DNA of 64,000 nt, taken from contig JAIYDI010000029.1 in the NCBI GenBank assembly GCA_027487555.1, positions 186,001 through 250,000 of the forward strand, in the 5' to 3' direction. Position numbers and translations under genes: made by a program. The notes under the pieces were generated by a model. That model had not been told where the DNA came from. It worked only from the letters and a program-made list of their open reading frames with translations, and made no database searches. Below are positions 3,479 to 16,459 of the stretch, piece after piece (position 1 is the stretch's first letter; the number at the start of each line of letters is the position of its first letter). Origin of the DNA: Hyphomicrobiales bacterium. Its GTDB lineage: Bacteria > Pseudomonadota > Alphaproteobacteria > Rhizobiales > Devosiaceae.

Positions 3479-3949
3479 ATGTTCTCAACTGCAACCCTCA
3501 AGCGTGCCGGCCGCGCGCTGGTCATTGCCGCCGCTCTCGGCGCCACCGGACTTGCTACTGCGCCCGTGCAGGCGGCCTCGCAACCGTCGCTGAGTTTTCA
3601 GTTTGGCATCGGCAATGACGGCAGCATCATCACCTTCGGCAATGACCGCGCCCCCCGCGGGTCTGCCCCCATCAAGAAATGCCTGACCAATCGGCAGATC
3701 GAACGTGGCCTTGAGCGGCACGGTTTTGACGACGCCGATGTCATCCGCAACCTCTCGAAGACGCGTGTGCTGGTGCATGCGGAATGGGGCCGCTACGATT
3801 ACAATCTCAAGGTGAACCGTTGCTCCGGCAAGGTCTTTGACATTGAGAGGATCCGTCGTGCGCCGCGTCCGGACCACTTCTGGCCCGATCACGGATGGGA
3901 CAACCACAACCGCTTCAGATTCCAGTTCCGATACGAGTCACCAAACTAA
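3479..3949 (+). CDS. Small secreted protein, PepSY-like pattern, paralogue of the next gene
   Basis: Signal peptide MFSTATLKRAGRALVIAAALGATGLATAPVQA; C...VNRCSGKVFDIERIRR tail shared with the 4019 gene; SD AAGGAG. Confidence 0.7.
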   Translation: MFSTATLKRAGRALVIAAALGATGLATAPVQAASQPSLSFQFGIGNDGSIITFGNDRAPRGSAPIKKCLTNRQIERGLERHGFDDADVIRNLSKTRVLVHAEWGRYDYNLKVNRCSGKVFDIERIRRAPRPDHFWPDHGWDNHNRFRFQFRYESPN

Positions 3950-4018
3950 AGCCGATTTGGTTGGGCAGCCCATGCTCGTCCATTTGTGATCCATCATCGA
4001 CCTTTGTGGAGGCATCTG

Positions 4019-4333
4019 ATGAAAAGCGCACGTCTAGTTTCTGCAGCGCTTGCGGCGCTGATTGCCGGAACCGCAATGCCTGCCATGGCAGACACGCATA
4101 TGCGCTTCGGTCTCTGGCCTCATGGCTGGGCCCACAAGACCATCTGTATCGAACTCACGGATTATCAGATCCGCACGGCGATCAAGGCCAGGGGTTACGA
4201 CAATGTGTACCTGAATGTACGCAGTGACCGCCGCATACAAGTTCGCGCCACCCGCAATGGATGGGTATACCTGCTAAGTGTGAATACTTGCACCGGTTCT
4301 GTCGTCGATCGACACCGTCTGCGTCGCGGATAA
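4019..4333 (+). CDS. Small secreted protein, PepSY-like pattern, paralogue of the previous gene
   Basis: Signal peptide MKSARLVSAALAALIAGTAMPAMA; C...VNTCTGSVVDRHRLRR tail; SD GGAGG. Confidence 0.7.
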   Translation: MKSARLVSAALAALIAGTAMPAMADTHMRFGLWPHGWAHKTICIELTDYQIRTAIKARGYDNVYLNVRSDRRIQVRATRNGWVYLLSVNTCTGSVVDRHRLRRG

Positions 4334-4356
4334 CTGTAAATGCGGAAGTTAATTTG

Positions 4357-4392
4357 CCGCCCGGGGTTGCAAGACCTCGGGCGGTTCTTTTT
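4357..4392 (+). terminator. Rho-independent terminator
   Basis: CCGCCCG stem, CGGGCGG complement, then TTCTTTTT. Confidence 0.85.
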
Positions 4393-4490
4393 GGTGCGCC
4401 ACGTAAAGACTTCGTAAGGAGTTCCGAAAAGGTTTCTTAAGCCTGAGCCGCTAGGGTCTAGGCATACGGTTTCAAGTCTGGAGTAGCCGT

Positions 4491-4664
4491 ATGCGTACCA
4501 GTGTCGCCGATAGCGTTGTGTATCCTGGCGCTGTTCGCGCGGTACCACGTTCAAGCAGATGGCTGCAGGCCGGATTTAAGAGTTTTGCGTACCGGCTTGC
4601 CCATCTCGCTTTGCCACGCCCCGCGATCATAGCGGCTGTCGCGGCGCTGTTTTATCTCGCCTGA
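4491..4664 (+). CDS. Small 57-aa protein of unknown function with hydrophobic C-terminus
   Basis: ATG with GGAG 7 nt upstream; MRTSVADSVVYPGAVRAVPRSSRWLQAGFKSFAYRLAHLALPRPAIIAAVAALFYLA; not in supplied ORF track. Confidence 0.45.
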   Translation: MRTSVADSVVYPGAVRAVPRSSRWLQAGFKSFAYRLAHLALPRPAIIAAVAALFYLA

Positions 4665-4673
4665 CCCGAAGCC

Positions 4674-6029
4674 CTACGATTTCCGCTCTGGCGGCTCGGC
4701 GGAGCCGCGGGCGAATGCTTCCGCGAATATGGCCTCCACAGTATCCGGCGTCAGCCTTGGCGGAGGCATCTTGGGAAGCGGTTTGCCTGCGCGAGTCTGC
4801 GAAGAACGATCGGCGGCTTGCGCTCCTGAGCCCTGCTCGATTGCTGCGGCCGCTGCATTGTCAAGTTCCGCTTCGTTGGGCGCTGGCGGCTGAGCGATCG
4901 CAGGCTCCACGATCGCGCGCTTTTCCTCCAGTACAATCGGTCCGACCGGTTCAGCCAGAGCCGGAGTAGCAGCCGGGGCAGGTGCAGGAGCTTGAGCTGC
5001 TTTTGACGCTGGAGCCGGTTTAGACGCCGGAGCCGGCTGTCGTGTGGGGGGTGCTGTCTCGATCTCGGCAGCGGCGACAATCGACGGCATCGCAGCAGGC
5101 TCGATTGCTGCCTGTGCCGCTGCTGGCCGGTCGACTGCAGCCTCCGGCAACACAGCAGGACCCTCGAAAGGTACGGTGATTTCTGTAAAGGGGCGCCGTT
5201 GCTGTGGACGTGCGGGGCGCGCTGTGCCGTCCGTCTTTGGCAGCAAGGGCCGGAAGTTTGTCGGGGCCTTGCTCCCTTCACTGGAAGCGCGGGGCGCTGT
5301 CGACTTGAGCGGAGCAATTGAAACCGGCGCGGGGCGTGTGGCGGGGATGGCTGGCGCAGGGCGTTCAGGCGGCGTTTGTGCTTTGGCACGTGCGGCTGCG
5401 GGAAGCGGCCGTGGCGGCGGGGCAGGGCGCCGTATAGCGAGGGGCTCAGGCGCGGCCTGCTGGTCATCAGTCATTGCTTTTGCTGCTTCAGGGCCGACTG
5501 GAGGCGTTTCCACAGGCTCTGGTGTGTCCATGGCGGGCGCAGCAACTGGTGCGGCTGGCAGGGCGGGCGGAGGTGTCGTTCCAACCGGTGCGTCGATGCT
5601 CGGCACGAAAGCGTCGACCGCCATCGGCGCGGCAACCTTCGGCAGATCTGTCAGATCCAATACAAGCGTAGGCTCCCGGCTGGCGCGAACGTCCGCTGCT
5701 GCCGCCTCGGGAGGCAGGCCGAAGTCAGGCTCGTGACGGGGCGTTTCTTCAAATTGTGGCTCGATCATCCGCGCATTGTCACGCGCCGTGCCGCGTGGCG
5801 GTGCATGGTCAAGATCGCGCTCAAATGGGCTGGTATCGATATCCGCCAGCCGAATGGCCTGCGGAACCTGCGTGGGAACCGAGGGTCGAGCCCTTCGGGC
5901 CTCGCCTTGTCGGCGCTGCCGGGTGATAGCGCGCCTGTCGGCAATCGATACCGCAACAAGAGCCAGCATCGCCACTGCGAGACCGACACCGGTGCCGGCG
6001 AGAAACCAAAAAAGAGAATCACCGCTCAT
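4674..6029 (-). CDS. Membrane-anchored Ala/Pro-rich protein
   Basis: MSGDSLFWFLAGTGVGLAVAMLALVAVSIADRR N-terminal TM; long Pro/Ala low-complexity linker; ordered tail LTPDTVEAIFAEAFARG; upstream start of ORF is 6086. Confidence 0.6.
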   Translation of the reverse strand: MSGDSLFWFLAGTGVGLAVAMLALVAVSIADRRAITRQRRQGEARRARPSVPTQVPQAIRLADIDTSPFERDLDHAPPRGTARDNARMIEPQFEETPRHEPDFGLPPEAAAADVRASREPTLVLDLTDLPKVAAPMAVDAFVPSIDAPVGTTPPPALPAAPVAAPAMDTPEPVETPPVGPEAAKAMTDDQQAAPEPLAIRRPAPPPRPLPAAARAKAQTPPERPAPAIPATRPAPVSIAPLKSTAPRASSEGSKAPTNFRPLLPKTDGTARPARPQQRRPFTEITVPFEGPAVLPEAAVDRPAAAQAAIEPAAMPSIVAAAEIETAPPTRQPAPASKPAPASKAAQAPAPAPAATPALAEPVGPIVLEEKRAIVEPAIAQPPAPNEAELDNAAAAAIEQGSGAQAADRSSQTRAGKPLPKMPPPRLTPDTVEAIFAEAFARGSAEPPERKS

Positions 6030-6269
6030 ATAAAGTCCCGAAAAAAGCCGGTCATCGCGCTCGCGCGCCGCCCGCGTCTCGCGCAACCGATGAGAAACAG
6101 CTTCATTCGCCGCCGGCTCCGGGGCGCGGTTCCAGCGTCTAGGACTAAAGCGTATAGGGCCACAGCGGGTCTTTGGCTATCGGCCGCACGCACTCATGCG
6201 CAACTTGCTGCACTGGCGCGCTGCGACATTTGGAGTTAAGGTTATCTGGTTTTCAGTACCCGAGCGACG

Positions 6270-6347
6270 AGGAGGGGCCCGATGTACACGCGACCCCATC
6301 TGACTTTCGGACCTGAATGGGCCCTGCAGCAGACGTTGCAGGGCTGA
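6270..6347 (+). promoter_or_regulatory. Candidate leader uORF (21 aa) with strong SD upstream of the ABC-F gene
   Basis: AGGAGG at 6270-6275, ATG at 6282, TGA ending at 6347; MYTRPHLTFGPEWALQQTLQG; perfect 8-bp hairpin 6321-6344 inside its last codons. Confidence 0.4.
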
Positions 6348-6460
6348 CCGCAACGGTTCGGAACCATATTCCTTGAACGTCCGGTCTGCCCGTCACCGCC
6401 AGTCCTTTGGGCTGGTACTTGATTTGGCGCAACAGCGCCGCCTGTGACGAGATCCAAAAC

Positions 6461-7975
6461 ATGTCGCTGATTTCCCTCAGGGCCCTGAGCCTCACGCTGG
6501 GCAAACCCCTGTTCCAAAACCTCGATTTCACCCTGAATCCCCGGGACCGGGTTGGGCTCGTCGCCCAGAACGGTGCGGGCAAGACGTCGCTGATGCGCGT
6601 GCTTCTGGGCGAGCTCGACGCGACTTCCGGCGAGGTGACGCGTGCTCGCGGCCTGCGAGTGGCTTCAGTCCCGCAGGATGTTCCCGAGCGGTTGTTGGGC
6701 TTGGACATGCGGCAGGCGGTGCTCGATGGACTGCCGCCGTCGCGGCACGACACCGACATGTGGATGGCCGATGTTGCTCTCGATGCCTTCGCGGCGCCCT
6801 ATGACATGCGCGAACGGCAGGTCAAGGCGCTGAGCGGCGGCTGGCAGCGCCTGATGCTCATTGCACGCGCCATTGTCGACGAGCCAGATTTGTTGCTGCT
6901 CGACGAACCAACGAACCATCTCGATTTGGGAAAGATTCGCTTGCTGGAGGATTGGCTCACTGGCGAGGGGCGCAACCGCGCGCTGATCGCAGCCAGCCAT
7001 GATCGCGCTTTCCTTGCGCGGGTCACAACACGCACACTGTTTCTGCGGCCCGGCGCGAGCCGCGAGTTCCCGCTGCCCTACGCCGCCGCGCGCCTTGCCC
7101 TCGACGGGGACGACAAGGCGGTGGCGGTGCAGAACGAGCGGGACCTCAGAGAAGCCGACAAACTGCGGAAGCAGGCGGCCAAGCTCACCAATATCGGCAT
7201 CAACTCGGGCAGTGACCTGCTGACGGTCAAGGCCAAGCAGTTGAAGGATCGTGCCAGTCGGATAGAGGGCGCCGTGCGCGATATGCACAAGGAGCGTTCG
7301 GGCGAGATCAGGCTGGGCAATTCCGGCACCCACGCGCGGCTGATGCTGGCGCTCGAGAACCTGGTGGTCACGACGCCAACCAGGGACAGCCTCTTCAAGA
7401 TCGAGAAGCTGCATCTGTTCCAGGCAGACCGCCTGGTCCTTCTGGGGCCGAACGGAGCCGGCAAGACGCAACTGGTGAAGCTGATTGCGGGAGCAATCGG
7501 CGCCACCGAGGGCATCGCGGGCGTGCGCGTGGCCGGCTCGCTCAGGCTCGGCTATTCCGACCAGGAACTCAGCCAGTTGCCCCAAGCCAAGTCGCCATCG
7601 GAATTCATCTCGACCGCGTTCGACCTGCCGGACCAGCGGGTGACGAGCCTGCTCGCGGCGATCGGACTTCCCGTGGAGGCACAGACCCGGCCAATCGCGC
7701 GCATGAGCCCGGGCCAGAAGGCGAGGCTCGCCCTGCTGGGGCTCAGGCTGACCGAGCCGAACTTCTACCTTTTGGACGAGCCCACCAACCATGTGGATAT
7801 CGTCGGGCGCGAGACCCTGGAAGCCGAAATCCTCGCGCATGGCGCCACCGCAGTGGTGGTATCGCATGACCGGAGCTTCATTCGCGCTGTCGGCTCGCGT
7901 TTCTTTGAAATTCGCGGGCGGAAGCTGGTGGAAGTGGACAGCCCGGAGGCGTTCTTCGCCTCGGCGGTAGCCTGA
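6461..7975 (+). CDS. ABC-F family ATP-binding protein
   Basis: Two ABC domains (GAGKTSLMRV, LSGGWQRLMLIARAI, LLLDEPTNHLDL; GAGKTQLVKL, MSPGQKARLALL, LLDEPTNHVDI), no TM segments. Confidence 0.9.
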   Translation: MSLISLRALSLTLGKPLFQNLDFTLNPRDRVGLVAQNGAGKTSLMRVLLGELDATSGEVTRARGLRVASVPQDVPERLLGLDMRQAVLDGLPPSRHDTDMWMADVALDAFAAPYDMRERQVKALSGGWQRLMLIARAIVDEPDLLLLDEPTNHLDLGKIRLLEDWLTGEGRNRALIAASHDRAFLARVTTRTLFLRPGASREFPLPYAAARLALDGDDKAVAVQNERDLREADKLRKQAAKLTNIGINSGSDLLTVKAKQLKDRASRIEGAVRDMHKERSGEIRLGNSGTHARLMLALENLVVTTPTRDSLFKIEKLHLFQADRLVLLGPNGAGKTQLVKLIAGAIGATEGIAGVRVAGSLRLGYSDQELSQLPQAKSPSEFISTAFDLPDQRVTSLLAAIGLPVEAQTRPIARMSPGQKARLALLGLRLTEPNFYLLDEPTNHVDIVGRETLEAEILAHGATAVVVSHDRSFIRAVGSRFFEIRGRKLVEVDSPEAFFASAVA

Positions 7976-8002
7976 GCCGGCATGGGGCGCGCAGAGCGCC
8001 CC

Positions 8003-8530
8003 TTACGCCCCCATCTCCAACAATTGATCTGCAAGACGGTTGAACCCAGTTGCCACTGTCGTCGCAAAGCCGCGCTTCACATCGCCGTCGCGTTCGGCGA
8101 TAGTCTGGAACTGAACCAGAACCGAGACTTCGGTGTCGGGCCCGGCACCCGCAAGGCTGACTGTGGTGACCGTGCGCGGTGTTGGCAGCTCCGCGATGGG
8201 GCCTGCCCAACCTACGGGACAATCGCGATAGACGAACCGCTCGGGTGCGCGGATATCGAGGTAGATTGAGCTGAAAGTGAATGTCTTGCGGTCCGGGTAG
8301 GTCCACTCTGTGAGCCAGACACCGCCTGCCTGCAGGTCGACTGTGACGCGGATCGCAACGCCACGCGGCCCCCAAAAGCGGGCCAAGTGTGGGGGCTCCG
8401 TAAAGCAGCGCCAGATCAGTTGCCGTGGTGCGCGAAACACCCGCGAAATCCTGATGATGGGTTCGGAGTCCGGCGTTTCTACCATGGTGCCGGATGAGTC
8501 CGCCGGAAGGTGCGGAAGCGTGTGTGTCAT
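8003..8530 (-). CDS. SRPBCC/AHSA1-like domain protein
   Basis: ISRVFRAPRQLIWRCFTEPPHLARFWGPRG pattern. Confidence 0.85.
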   Translation of the reverse strand: MTHTLPHLPADSSGTMVETPDSEPIIRISRVFRAPRQLIWRCFTEPPHLARFWGPRGVAIRVTVDLQAGGVWLTEWTYPDRKTFTFSSIYLDIRAPERFVYRDCPVGWAGPIAELPTPRTVTTVSLAGAGPDTEVSVLVQFQTIAERDGDVKRGFATTVATGFNRLADQLLEMGA

Positions 8531-8538
8531 GCTTTCCC

Positions 8539-9438
8539 TCAGGTCCGGTTCTGGTCAATGAACGGCGAGACAAGTGCCGGCAAGGCAGGAGACATAAAGA
8601 TGTCGTAGTGGGTGGCGCCGGGGATAACCGCGAAACGGTTTCGGTTCATGCCGGAGCGATCCCAGCCGGCATCCTGCCTGCCGCCGCCGAGCAGCTCGAA
8701 CAAGTGGGCGGCCTTGGAGATGCGGATGCTGTCCCAATCGCCGACGACGACAAGGGTGGGGGCGGTGATGCTGGGGAGTTCGGCGGCCCAGTCGAAATCC
8801 TGGCCGACAAGCGCGGCGACCTCGCGGACCGCGGCCGGCCAGGTGTCGGCGCCGCCGGGGGCGACGGCGACATAGCCCTGGTACATGGGCGAACCCTTCA
8901 TGCCTTCGGCCGTGGCGTCCGGGTTGGCGGCGATGCCGAGCATGCCGTGCTGGTTGAAATCGTGCCAGTTGTCGAAGGCGTAGGCTGTCGAGATCAGCAC
9001 CAGATGCTCGACGACCTCGGGGTGGTCGATGGCGAGGCGGAGGGCGACGCCGCCGCCGAGCGAATAGCCCATGACGTCGGCCTTCTCAAAACCCAGGAAC
9101 TTGATCAGTTCGGCGATGTCGGTGGCCATGGCGGGAAACGTCATGGGGCGGCCGAGCGGGCCGGTGCCGCCATGCGCCTGGATGTCGACGCCGATCACCT
9201 GCCGACCCTTTGCAAGTTCCGGGAGGATCGGCGCGAACATGCCGATGGAGCCGAAGCCGCCATGGATGAGGATCAGCGGTTTGCCCTCGCCATAGACTTC
9301 GCAGTGGATGTTGACGCCGTTGACGGGGGCTAGGCCGGAGGTGCTGGGGGTGAGCATGGCGGGACTTTCGGCGAGAGCGGGGAGGGTTGTGGCGAGGGTC
9401 ACCAGAATGGCGGCGGCGAGCAAGTGTCTTCGGTGCAT
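8539..9438 (-). CDS. Secreted alpha/beta hydrolase
   Basis: Signal peptide MHRRHLLAAAILVTLATTLPALA; LILIHGGFGS; GYSLGGGVAL nucleophile elbow; catalytic GATHYD. Confidence 0.87.
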   Translation of the reverse strand: MHRRHLLAAAILVTLATTLPALAESPAMLTPSTSGLAPVNGVNIHCEVYGEGKPLILIHGGFGSIGMFAPILPELAKGRQVIGVDIQAHGGTGPLGRPMTFPAMATDIAELIKFLGFEKADVMGYSLGGGVALRLAIDHPEVVEHLVLISTAYAFDNWHDFNQHGMLGIAANPDATAEGMKGSPMYQGYVAVAPGGADTWPAAVREVAALVGQDFDWAAELPSITAPTLVVVGDWDSIRISKAAHLFELLGGGRQDAGWDRSGMNRNRFAVIPGATHYDIFMSPALPALVSPFIDQNRT

Positions 9439-9528
9439 CTGTTGATCCTTTCGGGCAGCCGATCGCGTGGCGCGGTTGGCGCGCAGCGAAACGGCAGTGT
9501 GAGTGAAGTCAGGCGGGCAGGGGGGTGA

Positions 9529-10017
9529 TCAGGTGAGCGCCTCCAGGTGGGCGGCGAGGCGGTCGTAGCTTTCGAGCGTGCCCTGGGCAAAGCCGCGGCG
9601 CATGGCGGCATCGCGCTGCTCGGGGGTTTCGAAGGCGGCCACCAGCGTGAGGGTTGTGACCCCGTTCGCTTCGGTGAAGGTCAGGGTGCGGACGAAACTG
9701 GGCGGCGGGTTGTTGCCCCAGACTTCGCCCTGCGGGGCGGCGTTGCGATAGACGATGCGGCCTGGCGGCTCGATCTCGAGGAAGGTGCTGTTCGTGGGGT
9801 ACTCGCGGCCATCGGGGCTACGCATGACGTGGTGCCAGTTGCCGCCGACGCGGAAATCGAGCTGGCAGACCGGGTTGGTAAAACCCTTCGGACCCCACCA
9901 TTGTGCGAGGTGGAACGGATCGGCGAACATTTTCCAGACCAGGGCGCGCGGCGCGGCGAACACCCGCGTGATGCTGAGGGTCGGTTCTGATGGTGAAAGT
10001 TCGACGAGCGGTTCCAT
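9529..10017 (-). CDS. SRPBCC/AHSA1-like domain protein
   Basis: ITRVFAAPRALVWKMFADPFHLAQWWGPKGF pattern. Confidence 0.87.
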   Translation of the reverse strand: MEPLVELSPSEPTLSITRVFAAPRALVWKMFADPFHLAQWWGPKGFTNPVCQLDFRVGGNWHHVMRSPDGREYPTNSTFLEIEPPGRIVYRNAAPQGEVWGNNPPPSFVRTLTFTEANGVTTLTLVAAFETPEQRDAAMRRGFAQGTLESYDRLAAHLEALT

Positions 10018-10029
10018 GGTCGATCCGGA

Positions 10030-10836
10030 TCAGGCGAAGAAGGTCTTGATGAGCGGCGCGATGGATGTCGGCTTGACCATGTGGTTCTCGCCTTCGAGCT
10101 CGCCATGACGGGCGTTGGGCAACGCGGCGGCGATGGCTTTCTGGGCGTTGCGCATCCAGGTCTCGCTCTTGGTCCCGCCGACTACCATGGCCGGCTGGGT
10201 AAGGCGCGACCAGCTGCCGGGGGCGATAGGCTTGCCGTACTGGAAGGGGCCGGTGAGGGCGGTGTCGTATGTCAGCGTCGGGGCAACGATCTTCATGGTC
10301 TTCCAGAACGGCATCAGCCGCATCATGAAGACGGCGAAGGCGGGGAGGCCGACGCCCTTGCGCATGAAGTGCACCAGCATGCCGGAGCGGTCGTCGGCCT
10401 TGGCGAGGCGCTCGATGGTTTCGACATAGCCGGCGGGCAGGCGGCGGGTGTCGTCGGTGATGAAGGGGGCCTCGTAGAGGAAGAGCCGCTTGATCGCCGG
10501 CGTGCGGTTGGCGGTTTCGAGCGCCAGCGCCGCGCCCGAGGAGATGCCATAGACGAACACCTCAGTGCCGGCGGCGGTAACCAGGGCCTGCAGGTCCTCG
10601 ATCTCGCGGTCGATGGCATAGGGTTTTGTGTCGCCGCTCTCGCCGCGCCCGCGCCGGTCGTAGGTATAGACGGTGAAGCGGTCCCTCAACGCTTCGGCGA
10701 GCGGACGGGCCGGGCCGGAGGCGCGGTAGCAGAGTGCGCCATCGACGAGGATGAGCGCTGGCCCGGCTCCGATGCGCTCGTAGGCGATATGGGTTCCGTC
10801 GGCGGATGTGCAGAACTCGGTCATGCTGGGTGTCAT
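10030..10836 (-). CDS. Alpha/beta hydrolase
   Basis: TYDRRGRGESGD, GISSGAALALE nucleophile elbow, C-terminal LEGENHMV. Confidence 0.85.
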   Translation of the reverse strand: MTPSMTEFCTSADGTHIAYERIGAGPALILVDGALCYRASGPARPLAEALRDRFTVYTYDRRGRGESGDTKPYAIDREIEDLQALVTAAGTEVFVYGISSGAALALETANRTPAIKRLFLYEAPFITDDTRRLPAGYVETIERLAKADDRSGMLVHFMRKGVGLPAFAVFMMRLMPFWKTMKIVAPTLTYDTALTGPFQYGKPIAPGSWSRLTQPAMVVGGTKSETWMRNAQKAIAAALPNARHGELEGENHMVKPTSIAPLIKTFFA

Positions 10837-10863
10837 CCTGTAACGTGGCAGAGCTTTCGGGCG

Positions 10864-11211
10864 TCAGGTCTTTGGCGCGTCCGGATCGGCAGCCTGCAAC
10901 TCGGCGAGATACGCGTCGAGCCGATCGAGGCTTTCGTCCCAGAATTGCCGGTAGGCATCAAGAAAGGTCGCGAGTTCCTTCATCGGCGCGGCTTCCAGCC
11001 GGCACGGGCGCCATTGCGCATCCTTTCCGCGGCTGACAAGGCCCGCCTGCTCGAGCACCTTGATGTGCTTGCTGACGGCAGCAAAGCTCATCTCGAAGGG
11101 CTCGGCCAGTTGCGTGACCGATGCCTCACCGGATGCAAGCCGAGCCAGTATGGCGCGCCGTGTTGGGTCTGCGAGGGCGGAAAGCGTGCCGCTGAGCGAG
11201 TCGGTCGCCAT
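10864..11211 (-). CDS. ArsR-family HTH transcriptional regulator
   Basis: LADPTRRAILARLASGEASVTQLAEPFEMSFAAVSKHIKVLEQAGLV winged helix. Confidence 0.9.
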   Translation of the reverse strand: MATDSLSGTLSALADPTRRAILARLASGEASVTQLAEPFEMSFAAVSKHIKVLEQAGLVSRGKDAQWRPCRLEAAPMKELATFLDAYRQFWDESLDRLDAYLAELQAADPDAPKT

Positions 11212-11230
11212 GACTATCCCAATCCGTATT

Positions 11231-11283
11231 CAACTGATGAGTTGAGTACATCAGCTGAACCTGATAGTCAACCGGTTGGTTGA
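11231..11283. promoter_or_regulatory. Candidate ArsR operator region
   Basis: CAACT-GATG-AGTTG inverted repeat (11231-11244) and palindrome CAACCGGTTG (11269-11278) just upstream of the arsR-like start. Confidence 0.5.
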
Positions 11284-11398
11284 ATACGAAGCTCGTCGAG
11301 CCGGCGTCACGAGCCGACCCGTTTGGCGCCAGGACGAAGCGTCGCTGAGCCGTCGTTTCGGAAAGACTCCGTAAAACGATCCGCTGCTATAGTGGCCG

Positions 11399-12100
11399 GT
11401 GTTGTGGGGCCCAGGGGGCACAGACTTGGTCGACGTGCAGAAGACGAAGCCAGCCAGCGAACTCGAGGGGCGTTTCATTGGCGACCTCTATGGCAGCTGT
11501 GTCTTTCCGAGCCGGACCAAGGATGAGGCTGTCGTACATGCGTTTCATGCCCGCAGCGTTTCAACACGGCAGGCGGTGGTGAGTGCGGATGTCGATGTGT
11601 CCCGCGGTGAGCCTGTGGCGCTGCGCTTCGATACACTCGGCATCAGGCACGGCGAGATCGAACGGGTGTTCAAGGGCGGCTTCGTCGTGCGGTTTCCAGA
11701 GGCCGAGGCGGTCGACGACACGCTCACCAAGAGCATTGACTGGCTGAAGCTCAAGAGCCGCGGCAAGATCGCCGAACGCCGGCGGCACAAACGTGTGTTA
11801 CCGCGCGAGGGCGCTGCCAAGCTGGTGCTCGGCACCGATCACATTGTCGGTTGTACCATCCAGGACATGTCGCAATCTGGCGCAGCTGTGCTTTGTGACG
11901 ACGTGCCTGCGATCGGCCGGCTCGTTGCAGTCGGTTCGGTCCCTGGACGTGTCGTTCGGCATTTCCCCGGCGGCTTTGGCATGCAGTTCGTCGAAATACA
12001 GTCGCTCGAGACTGTCGAGGCGTTGATGACATTGCGGAATGCGGCCGAAAAGAGCCTTGCGGCCCGCCGCCTAACCCAAACCGTGAAGCGGCTCGGCTGA
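11399..12100 (+). CDS. PilZ-domain protein (one canonical, one degenerate domain)
   Basis: RRHKR (RxxxR) and DMSQSG (DxSxxG) in the second half; related beta-rich first half without these motifs; start uncertain. Confidence 0.7.
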   Translation: MLWGPGGTDLVDVQKTKPASELEGRFIGDLYGSCVFPSRTKDEAVVHAFHARSVSTRQAVVSADVDVSRGEPVALRFDTLGIRHGEIERVFKGGFVVRFPEAEAVDDTLTKSIDWLKLKSRGKIAERRRHKRVLPREGAAKLVLGTDHIVGCTIQDMSQSGAAVLCDDVPAIGRLVAVGSVPGRVVRHFPGGFGMQFVEIQSLETVEALMTLRNAAEKSLAARRLTQTVKRLG

Positions 12101-12105
12101 ACGCC

Positions 12106-13137
12106 TCAGGCAGCCGCTTTCTTCGGCAGAACGCGCCGGATGGTCTTCCAAATTGGTTTGAGTACAAACTGCGTAAGCGGGATCAGCAGCGCGCCCAGTG
12201 TGATGCCGATGGTGAAATCTGCGAGAATCACCACCAGTTCCTCCGCCAGTGCCGCAATTGCTGGCAACGCGTCGCCAACCGCATGCGCCATACCTTCGAT
12301 AAAGTGCTCGATGCCTTCGAAGCCGAAACCGGCCAATCCGTGGACGACAATGCCGCCGCCGACCCATACCATCGCTGCCGTGCCGACAACCGAGAGTATC
12401 TGCATGACCCAGGGCATGGCTTTGAGAATGCCGCGCCCTGCCGCCCGTCCCAAGCCGGTGCGCGCGTTCTGCGCCAGGGCCAGGCCGAAATCGTCGGCTT
12501 TCACGATGATGGCAACCGCACCATACACAAGTAGCGTGATGCCTATGCCGACTACGGCGAGCACGGCAGCCTTCTCGGCAAAGGGCAGATCAGGCAGGGC
12601 GCCAAGGGCTATCGTCATGATTTCAGCCGAGAGGATGAAGTCTGTCTGGATCGCACCCGAAATTCGGGATTTCTCAAGGGCCTCGGGCGTTTCGGGCTCC
12701 TCTGTATCGTGTTCGAGCCCGTGCGCTTCGTGCGGCATCAGCCAGGCATAGACCTTCTCGGCCCCTTCGAAGCAGAGGTAGAGCCCGCCGAGCATCAACA
12801 GCGGTGAGACGAGCCACGGCGCAAAAAGGCTGAGCGCCAGCGCCGCCGGCAGCAGGATCAGCAGCTTGTTGCGAATAGAGCCGAGTGCGATCTTGCCGAC
12901 GATCGGGAGTTCGCGGTTGGCCGCGAAGCCAGCAATGTAGTTCGGCGTCACCGCAGTGTCGTCGATGACGGCGCCGGCCGCCTTCAGGCCGGCTTTCGCT
13001 GCCTGGCCCGCAACATCATCGATAGAGGCTGCGGCGACCTTCGCCAGTGCCGTCACATCGTCTAGAAGGCCGAGTAGTCCGATGCTCATGTAAGAATCTC
13101 GCGTGTTCGCCACCACAATGCCAGTGAGGTCGCACAA
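12106..13137 (-). CDS. DUF808/YedI-like membrane protein
   Basis: LLDDVTALAKVAAASIDDVAGQAAKAGLKAAGAVIDDTAVTPNYIAGFAANRELPIVGKIALGSIRNKLLILLPAAL. Confidence 0.85.
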   Translation of the reverse strand: MCDLTGIVVANTRDSYMSIGLLGLLDDVTALAKVAAASIDDVAGQAAKAGLKAAGAVIDDTAVTPNYIAGFAANRELPIVGKIALGSIRNKLLILLPAALALSLFAPWLVSPLLMLGGLYLCFEGAEKVYAWLMPHEAHGLEHDTEEPETPEALEKSRISGAIQTDFILSAEIMTIALGALPDLPFAEKAAVLAVVGIGITLLVYGAVAIIVKADDFGLALAQNARTGLGRAAGRGILKAMPWVMQILSVVGTAAMVWVGGGIVVHGLAGFGFEGIEHFIEGMAHAVGDALPAIAALAEELVVILADFTIGITLGALLIPLTQFVLKPIWKTIRRVLPKKAAA

Positions 13138-13206: not shown

Positions 13207-13875
13207 GTGCTGCCATGGGTTGAACTGGGCCGGGCCAAAGTGCCGGGCGGCGACGAGTTCCGGCTGATGCAGCGGGGCGACGAGTTCACCATATTCGCCG
13301 GCACTATCGGGCTGATGGGCAGCCGGCAATCCGGCTCGGAGGAGGTGATGGCCGATATCGCCTTTGCTCGCGTCGGCGGCAGGGCAAAGGCACGGGTGCT
13401 GATCGGCGGGCTCGGCATGGGATTCACCCTCAGGCGGGTGTTGGCAAAGTTCGGCGCCGATGCCGAAATCGTAGTGGCGGAACTGGTGCCCGAGATCGTC
13501 AGCTGGGCGCGCGGGCCACTGGCCGGCCTGCATGGCACAAGCCTCGACGATCCGCGCGTGACGCTGAAGCTGGGCGATGTCGGCAACGTCATGGCAGCGG
13601 ACGCGCAGAAGTTCGACGCCATCCTGCTCGATGTCGACAACGGCCCCGAGGGCCTGTCGCGGCCGGGCAATGACCGGCTCTATTCTGCCGGCGGTATTTC
13701 GGCAGCCAAGGCGGCGCTGCGGCCCGGCGGTATGGCGGCGATCTGGTCGGTGGCGCCCGATCCGAAATTCACCAAGCGGCTCGGCCAATCCGGCATGAAG
13801 GTGGAGGAGTTGAAGGCCCGCGCCCATGGCGGCAAGGGCGCGCGGCACGTCATCTGGGTGGCGACGCGGGGCTAA
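13207..13875 (+). CDS. Spermidine-synthase-like methyltransferase-fold protein
   Basis: LIGGLGMGFTLR, VVAELVPEIVSWARG, DAILLDVDNGPEG Rossmann motifs. Confidence 0.75.
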   Translation: MLPWVELGRAKVPGGDEFRLMQRGDEFTIFAGTIGLMGSRQSGSEEVMADIAFARVGGRAKARVLIGGLGMGFTLRRVLAKFGADAEIVVAELVPEIVSWARGPLAGLHGTSLDDPRVTLKLGDVGNVMAADAQKFDAILLDVDNGPEGLSRPGNDRLYSAGGISAAKAALRPGGMAAIWSVAPDPKFTKRLGQSGMKVEELKARAHGGKGARHVIWVATRG

Positions 13876-14538
13876 TCATTCCGCAGCAGTGGCTGGGGCT
13901 TCAAGTGACCGAACCAGATTGCGGGCAATTCGCTGGGTCGCCTTCCGTAGGTCCGGCGTCACCTGCGCGTCCAGATCGCCGTGGATCAGGCGGTTCCTCA
14001 GGTTGGCGGCTCTTCGCAGGATATCGGCTTCGTTTGGGCTCACATGCCCCTCGGAGGCGAGGAGTTCCACAACCCTCCCAGGAGACTGCGGTCGCCGCGT
14101 CTGGTCCGGAGAGAGAATTCGAGCAATAGCTTCGAGAACAGGCCAGAGCATCACAAACGCGCCGGGATCGCTTTCATTCATCCCCTCGATACTCGCCAGT
14201 GTGTCCCGCACCCTGCCTTTCGATGTAGGCACTAAGGTCGGTGGAGCTACGCCAGCGTACAAGACGTCCAGACGCCATCCACTCCTGCCCGCCAAGAGCG
14301 GCCTGACTGCCTCAATCTTTCTTTGGGCATCGGTTTGCCCCTTGTACAGAACCTCCACTAGGATGTTGTCTGACGAACTGCCAGGAGCGGCCAGCAAAAC
14401 TGCATCCGGCCGATAGCTTCCAAGGAACTCGGGGAGTTCCACACCGTGAGGGTTCTTGAGCAGGCGGTAGCCTTGCGAAGTCCACTTGGATGCGTAGCGC
14501 TCAAGTGCGTCATCTTCTTCGCGTGTCAACTCGGTCAT
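13876..14538 (-). CDS. REase-like N-terminal domain + HEPN-like C-terminal domain protein
   Basis: RPDAVLLAAPGSSSDNILVEVLYKG resembles a restriction-endonuclease-fold core; LRNRLIHGD matches the HEPN RX4-6H motif. Confidence 0.5.
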   Translation of the reverse strand: MTELTREEDDALERYASKWTSQGYRLLKNPHGVELPEFLGSYRPDAVLLAAPGSSSDNILVEVLYKGQTDAQRKIEAVRPLLAGRSGWRLDVLYAGVAPPTLVPTSKGRVRDTLASIEGMNESDPGAFVMLWPVLEAIARILSPDQTRRPQSPGRVVELLASEGHVSPNEADILRRAANLRNRLIHGDLDAQVTPDLRKATQRIARNLVRSLEAPATAAE

Positions 14539-14951
14539 AAACGAATGTCCTCCAGAGGCACCTCGTCCACCCTGATATAAACCGTTGGCTCCCCACTTAC
14601 CATGGCAGCAAGAAGAACAGGACTTGGATCGGCAAAGGTCACGACTGCCATCGGATGGATTCTCTGTGCAACTACCCGGTCAAAGAGTGCGTCGTCGACG
14701 ACAACGTTGGGTCGCAGGCCGTCAAGTATCGGCTTTATTCTGTTGTCCACATCGCCTTGAAGCGGTTCGGCAGGGAAGTAAAACACAGAGACTGCGAGCC
14801 TTGCTGCGTCAAAGGCCCAGCTTTCCGGCGGAATTGCCGCTCTGGCGGCTGCCCTTACACGATCTTGCCATTCCTTCTTTGACCTTGCGCTACCCTGAAG
14901 ACTTACCGGAATTCCAACAACGAAGAACTCCAGAGGCAAATCCGGCCACAT
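14535..14951 (-). CDS. RusA-like Holliday junction resolvase
   Basis: GDVDNRIKPILDGLRPNVVVDDALFDRVVAQRIHP matches the RusA acidic catalytic signature; overlaps downstream gene by ATGA. Confidence 0.75.
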   Translation of the reverse strand: MWPDLPLEFFVVGIPVSLQGSARSKKEWQDRVRAAARAAIPPESWAFDAARLAVSVFYFPAEPLQGDVDNRIKPILDGLRPNVVVDDALFDRVVAQRIHPMAVVTFADPSPVLLAAMVSGEPTVYIRVDEVPLEDIRL

Positions 14952-14995
14952 AGCAAACCCTCATATGCTCCGTCCACGCTAGTTGCGCTCATCAC

Positions 14996-15023
14996 AAAAA
15001 GAAAGGGCCCCATCGGGGCCCTT
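14996..15023 (-). terminator. Rho-independent terminator of glnA
   Basis: AAGGGCCCC-ATC-GGGGCCCTT with T-rich tract on the minus strand. Confidence 0.85.
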
Positions 15024-15049
15024 CCAATTCATGACAATCGATCCGGCGA

Positions 15050-16459
15050 CTAGGCCGAGTAGTACATTTCGTACTCGACCGGGTGCGGGGTGTGCTCGAA
15101 CTTGATGACTTCCGTCATCTTCAGCTCGATATAGCTGTCGATCTGGTCGTCGGTGAACACGCCGCCGGCCTTGAGGAAGTCGCGGTCCTTGTCGAGGTTC
15201 TCGAGCGCTTCGCGGAGCGAGCCGCAAACGGTCGGGATCATCTTCAGTTCTTCCTTCGGCAGCTCGTACAGATCCTTGTCCATCGGGTCGCCCGGGTGGA
15301 TCTTGTTCTTGATGCCGTCGAGGCCGGCCATCAGCATGGCGGCAAAGCCGAGATAGGGGTTCGCCAGCGGATCGGGGAAGCGCACTTCGACGCGCTTGGC
15401 CTTCGGCGACTGGCCGAAGGGGATACGGCAGGAGGCCGAGCGGTTGCGCGCCGAGTAGGCGAGCAGCACGGGGGCTTCGAAGCCGGGCACCAGACGCTTG
15501 TAGGAGTTTGTGGTCGGGTTGGTGAAGGCGTTGATGGCCTTGGCGTGCTTGATGATGCCGCCGATGTAGTAGAGCGCGTCCATCGACAGGCCGGCATACT
15601 GGTCACCAGCGAAGAGCGGCTTGCCGTCCTTCCAGATCGACTGGTGGCAGTGCATGCCCGAACCGTTATCGCCATAAACCGGCTTCGGCATGAAGGTCAC
15701 GGTCTTGCCGTAGGCCTGGGCGACCTGCTGGATCACGTACTTGTAGATCTGCACCGAGTCGGCTGCCTTGATGATCGGGCAGAACTTGATGCCGAGTTCG
15801 TGCTGGGCAGACGCCACTTCGTGGTGGTGCTTTTCGATCGGCACGCCCATGGCGCCCATGGCTGCGAGCATTTCGCCGCGCATGTCCTGGGCGGTATCCA
15901 GCGGCGGAACCGGGAAATAGCCCTTCTTCAGGCCGATATGGTGGCCGTTATTGCCGGATTCGTACTCGGTGTCGTTGTTGGTCGGCAGTTCCGAGTGGTC
16001 GACCGAGAACCCGACCTTGTAGGTGGTGTTCGAATAGCGGACGTCGTCGAAAATGAAGAATTCGGGCTCGGGGCCGAAATAGACGCTGTCGCCGATCCCG
16101 AGCTCCTTGACGTAGGCCTCGGCCTTCTTGGCTGTGGTGCGGGGGTCGCGCTCATAGGGCTGGTACGTCAGCGGGTCGAGCACGTCGCAATTGATGGCGA
16201 GGGTTGAGGCCGAAAAGAACGGATCCATATAGGCCGAATCCGGATCGGGCATCAGCACCATGTCGGACTCGTTGATGGCCTTCCAGCCGGCAATCGAGGA
16301 ACCGTCGAACATGGTGCCTTCTTCGAACAGGTCTTCGTCGACCATGGTCACGTCGAAAGTCACGTGCTGCAGCTTGCCGCGCATGTCGGTGAAGCGCAGA
16401 TCGACATACTTGATGTCCTCATCCTTGATCTTCTTGAGGATGTCGCTCGCAGTGGTCAT
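15050..16459 (-). CDS. glnA: Glutamine synthetase type I
   Basis: [41 protein letters not shown], adenylylation-region DKDLYELP; 469 aa. Confidence 0.97.

Follow-up and report, generated by a model that had tools for sequence, protein, structure and literature searches.

Two minus-strand genes in the window (the whole 64,000-nucleotide stretch of Hyphomicrobiales DNA that was analysed) form a real, mobile and near-obligate two-gene module, which carries two conserved nuclease active sites and a third that is often degenerate. The upstream gene encodes a RusA-type protein and the downstream gene a fusion of an AHJR (Hjc)-like REase domain with a HepT-like HEPN domain (Table 1). A preliminary description of this DNA had taken the pair for a candidate defence or toxin islet. 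As a whole that reading is partly supported: the module, its three domains, its islet nature and its recurrence are supported, and abortive infection is a role that we infer.

Table 1. Positions in the window of the gene pair and associated features
Feature	Position	Strand	Details and basis
RusA-family resolvase gene	14535..14951	-	138 aa; PF05866, phrog_34, AF2/Foldseek, motif columns
AHJR(Hjc)-like REase domain + HepT-like HEPN fusion gene	13876..14538	-	220 aa; PF18743, PF01934, AF2/Foldseek
ATGA, RusA stop overlapping REase-HEPN start	14535..14538	-	sequence
HEPN R-x4-H catalytic motif (RNRLIH, R181-H186)	13981..13998	-	translation
Insertion (islet) extent relative to congeners	13867..14995	.	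blastn to L023, L025 + composition
glnA intrinsic terminator-like hairpin between glnA and pair	15001..15025	-	

The gene pair is an islet between housekeeping genes

The coordinates and the ATGA overlap given in the preliminary description are confirmed by the sequence, and the two genes are arranged as if translationally coupled. A sigma-70 promoter scan of positions 13700-15200 found no site. The pair lies, as had been described, between a spermidine-synthase-like gene and the terminator-like hairpin of glnA, and its flanking genes are of housekeeping rather than phage type; the neighbours in the window are AHSA1, hydrolase, ArsR, PilZ, DUF808, the spermidine-synthase-like gene, glnA, P-II, LacI and Gfo/Idh genes.

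The proposed islet is borne out by comparison with two congeners (L023 and L025), where blastn places the spermidine-synthase-like gene directly beside glnA. The gap between the homologous flanks is about 61 bp in L023 and about 8 bp in L025, compared with 1.13 kb in the window, and the pair is thus a clean insertion of ~1.13 kb. The GC content of the islet is 57.6%, against 62.8% for the window, and GC3 of its two genes is 0.53 and 0.63, against 0.68-0.87 in the six neighbouring genes that were measured. The REase-HEPN protein is also absent from all 18 other genomes of the genus that were searched. Because the islet is missing from congeners and has lower GC and GC3, it bears signs of recent acquisition.

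The upstream protein is a predicted RusA-family resolvase

The 138-residue protein matches the Pfam family PF05866 (RusA) with an E-value of 3e-5 and 25.1 bits, above the curated cut-off of 22.8, and the RusA-like phrog_34 with an E-value of 2e-6. Its AF2 model (pLDDT 82.6) has the fold of Escherichia coli RusA (PDB code 1q8r; Foldseek probability 1.00, E 5e-5, TM 0.71 by target length). The active site of E. coli RusA consists of an Asp triad (D70, D72, and D91) together with the lysine K76, and the motif residues D67, D69, N70, K73, and D87 are all present in the window protein, as is the acidic signature to which the preliminary description had drawn attention. The protein is therefore, by sequence and model, a predicted resolvase of the RusA family with an intact-looking active site. 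It has the fold and the active-site Asp residues in common with RusA of lambdoid phages and prophages, but belongs to a separate subfamily, for which strong matches were obtained here only beside REase-HEPN genes.

The downstream protein fuses an Hjc-like domain to a HepT-like HEPN domain

In the 220-residue protein, residues 5-104 match the AHJR-like REase family PF18743 (E 9e-13; 48.2 bits, cut-off 26.1), and residues 136-187 match the HepT-like family PF01934 above the curated cut-off (E 6e-6); the HEPN domain as a whole spans residues ~125-213. The AF2 model, computed from a 17-row alignment (pLDDT 89.6, pTM 0.57), shows an N-terminal alpha-beta-beta-beta-alpha-beta core and a C-terminal helical bundle, i.e., an REase-type core joined to a HepT-type HEPN domain. 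Foldseek matches the model to HepT of HepT-MntA (PDB codes 5yep and 6m6w; probability 1.00), at an E-value of about 0.004 because no more than half of the protein aligns. The REase half is not prominent among the Foldseek matches, and a profile search gave weak matches to the archaeal Hjc structures 2eo0 (E 0.009), 4tkd and 1hh1 (E 0.2-0.4); assignment as Hjc-like therefore rests mainly on Pfam.

The R-x4-6-H motif recognised in the preliminary description is present and can be specified as R-x4-H, formed by R181 and H186. For the REase-like core, the quoted motif is there and lies in a PF18743 domain, but its EVLYKG segment does not supply the canonical E-x-K lysine. The window copy keeps D45 and E62 and has a leucine in place of the lysine (EVL, where most close relatives read IEVK), so the PD...(D/E)xK catalytic set is incomplete. 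It is possible that the shifted lysine in EVLYK could serve instead. The assignment of this domain, made from sequence, is one of fold and not of nuclease activity. Against the PADLOC defence models, the fusion protein gave only weak matches (E 0.004 and 0.026) and the RusA protein none, and the NCBIfam HepT toxin equivalog cut-off was not reached by the fusion protein (25 bits, compared with 60).

The pair recurs across alphaproteobacterial families

Relatives were sought by the REase-HEPN protein alone, in the bacterial family, the class, the phylum (by PF18743), plasmids, and genomes of named species. With the single window protein as query, genome contigs gave no match, because the family is too divergent, whereas an alignment of close relatives succeeded. 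After removal of duplicates, 34 distinct full-length REase-HEPN proteins were retained, with identities of about 30% reflecting strong divergence within the family. In 33 of the 34, the directly adjoining upstream gene, in the same orientation, is RusA, and in 30 of these 33 pairs, depending on the start chosen, the genes overlap by 4 or 1 bases (31 with the Azospirillum annotation). The recurrence in unrelated loci that the preliminary description had proposed to survey is thus found, far outside close relatives. Together with the modelled REase-type and HEPN folds, this goes against both outcomes that the preliminary description had named as refuting it.

The association is also seen in a sample not chosen by the pair: among 399 genomes of the phylum, all six PF18743 matches have the RusA gene. 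In the reverse direction, a profile of the RusA subfamily matches strongly in five of 240 genomes of the class, all at REase-HEPN loci, one of them a broken copy. Within the bacterial family, matches came from four more of 136 genomes, and the protein matched in one of these (L005) is a different HEPN protein. The pair occurs across many alphaproteobacterial families and on several plasmids, with hosts that include Rhizobium, Agrobacterium (on a Ti plasmid), Bosea, Methylobacterium, Afifella, Azospirillum, Humitalea, Caulobacter vibrioides, metagenome-assembled genomes of Devosia and Bauldia, and, from a different class, a single genome (L041, divergent). The sole unpaired full-length case (L019, 1498-2145, minus strand) is a very divergent REase-HEPN protein with a degenerate REase motif. 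Searches of phage records found no relative and viral contigs gave no confirmed one, which neither supports nor excludes a role in defence.

L005, L020 and L021 match over the HEPN part only; they are other HEPN proteins and were left out of the count of REase-HEPN proteins. In L005 (1459-2580, minus strand), from a genome of the same family, the HEPN C-terminal domain is attached to a different and longer N-terminal region. In L018 (G317:C1, about 3064387-3065125) the module is broken, and what is left of RusA and of REase-HEPN lies side by side in different reading frames. The well-known C. vibrioides genome that served as control has a match above the PF18743 cut-off, and a named strain of the species (L046) has the full pair.

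Active-site conservation differs between the three domains

All 34 REase-HEPN proteins keep the Arg and His of the HEPN motif. The Asp residues and the Asn of RusA are likewise invariant in all 33 copies, with the Lys kept in 32. In the REase domain the Asp is invariant, Glu is kept in 28/34, and Lys in 18/34. Chance can be excluded, since the same pair, its catalytic residues invariant, is found at 33 loci. The pattern suggests that catalysis by RusA and HEPN is constrained and that catalysis by the REase domain often is not. Loss of the E-x-K motif requires at least seven changes on a quick tree with weakly supported deep branches, and only two are forced by the well-supported branches. The distance matrices of the RusA and REase-HEPN proteins correlate (r = 0.89, 0/2000 permutations), a correlation to which shared ancestry contributes as a confounder.

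These data bear on whether the Hjc-like REase and RusA might restrict invading DNA by direct cleavage, with HEPN as a mere dimerisation scaffold. An intact E-x-K in 18 of the 34 copies would fit such an activity, but the motif is lost in the other 16, including the window copy, while the HEPN Arg and His are never lost, and neither the window nor any of the annotated loci that were examined showed a methyltransferase partner. We consider this explanation very improbable, and restriction-modification was rejected as the main reading on the same two grounds.

Some copies lie among defence genes

In Rhizobium sp. PDO1-076 (L047), a CBASS cyclase with its 2TM effector and a PD-T7-1-like gene lie on one side of the pair, and the opposite side has a REase_II-like gene and GajA; positions 3822-12593 of this locus make up a compact defence island that contains the pair. 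AbiEi-AbiEii precede the pair in Rhizobium sp. T136 (L008), PD-Lambda-2 B/C and GajB-like genes are near it in R. gallicum (L009), and so are a type IV-like REase in R. phaseoli and a dCTPase in Rhizobium sp. Root482 (L055). For some Rhizobiaceae, such surroundings support a role in conflict, with the individual cases serving as illustration and not as a measure of enrichment. The majority of copies are islets on their own and not parts of defence islands. The neighbours are ordinary in most other hosts, and many copies, among them those of Methylobacterium, Azospirillum, Bosea, and the window itself, have such neighbours. Matches to ZorB in L045 and CARF-ADA in L046 are probably a housekeeping MotB-like protein and an adenosine deaminase, respectively, and were not counted as defence genes. 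In three Rhizobiaceae loci (L006, L007, and L047) a convergent gene of ~645 codons lies directly downstream of the pair. It is annotated as an ATP-binding protein in L006, matches a type II REase weakly in L047, and is possibly a further element or a shared island gene.

One Ti-plasmid copy adjoins genes for ImuA, a Y-family polymerase, and LigD. This setting, and the fact that a single unit combines two unrelated Holliday-junction-resolvase folds, would suit an accessory of DNA repair or recombination. RusA would then resolve junctions, and the Hjc-HEPN protein would clear RNA from R-loops or DNA-RNA hybrids at the same structures. Patchy islets (4/136 genomes of the bacterial family) and identities of about 30% are atypical of repair genes, however, and several loci of the pair lie among defence genes, so that a repair function appears distinctly unlikely.

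Comparison with HepT-MntA and known HEPN fusions

As for HepT-MntA (HEPN-MNT, a type VII toxin-antitoxin system), the pair is a two-gene module with a HepT-like HEPN fold and an R-x4-H RNase motif. In HepT-MntA, the tyrosine of the toxin's RX4HXY motif is AMPylated (PMC7641770). This tyrosine is missing in all 34 copies, where the residue two positions after the His is D, A, Q, G, V, S, F, or T. Furthermore, the partner is RusA instead of an MNT nucleotidyltransferase, with no MNT gene in the window or among the neighbours of the pair, and the HEPN domain is one half of a fusion with an Hjc-like REase. Identity with HepT-MntA was rejected because both the tyrosine and the MNT gene are missing.

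A toxin-antitoxin system of another kind could be envisaged, with the HEPN RNase as toxin and RusA as antitoxin. RusA would act either through binding or through an enzymatic activity for which its active site is needed, and the pair would serve maintenance of the islet or plasmid and not phage sensing. A small upstream gene that overlaps a HEPN toxin-like gene is classic toxin-antitoxin anatomy, the HepT fold is known from toxins, and the pair is located on islets and plasmids. On the other hand, the resolvase catalytic Asp residues retained in 33/33 copies of RusA would be odd in a simple binding antitoxin, and the tyrosine that MntA AMPylates is absent. We know of no precedent for RusA as an antitoxin, and overall we regard this arrangement as unlikely.

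The domain fusion itself is not new. Table 1 of Anantharaman et al. 2013 (PMC3710099) lists DUF86-type HEPN domains as "occasionally fused to" an archaeal Holliday junction resolvase-like REase, an architecture (PF18743 + PF01934) that, as tabulated there, is identical to that of the downstream gene. In contrast, a RusA partner and a near-obligate overlap were not found in the main text of that paper, and in the open-access full texts searched no paper describing a HEPN-RusA pair was found. The AHJR-HEPN fusion is thus already known since 2013, and its obligate RusA partner is without a report found in open papers.

Proposed function

We give about even chances to the pair being a mobile two-gene conflict module, most likely directed against phages or plasmids and of an abortive type; the abortive-infection reading is our best guess from the sequences. 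A more specific version, which we put forward tentatively, is a self-contained system of immune or toxin type, not described before, whose RusA and degenerate Hjc-like domain would jointly detect the branched DNA of an invader and thereby activate the fused HEPN RNase. In the mechanism that we propose for the conflict module, RusA, aided by the Hjc-like domain, would bind or cut branched DNA, for example recombination or replication intermediates of the invading element. Because the catalytic lysine is often missing, the Hjc-like domain would probably act mainly as a platform for binding DNA or RusA. As about half of the family has a catalytically eroded REase domain, "DNA-sensing" is a guess from the fold and not a result. 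Engagement or disturbance of the RusA/Hjc complex would then release the HEPN RNase, which would cleave host or phage RNA and stop growth.

PrrC is a HEPN anticodon nuclease that is held by a type I restriction enzyme as a back-up to the DNA-acting complex. The logic proposed for the conflict module would resemble that of PrrC and EcoprrI, in that a HEPN RNase is tied to a DNA-acting nuclease complex, but the pair has neither an ABC ATPase nor Hsd subunits, and the DNA-acting parts are non-homologous.

At about 1.1 kb the pair is small and genetically portable, and it occurs in tractable species, C. vibrioides and Rhizobium among them, so that it can be tested directly. If the proposed mechanism is true, two unrelated Holliday-junction-resolvase folds would be linked to an RNase effector, and DNA branch structure would be the sensing principle, which to our knowledge has no counterpart among characterised defence systems. 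It would also give a subfamily of RusA a role outside phages, and HepT-type RNases a second regulatory solution besides AMPylation by MntA.
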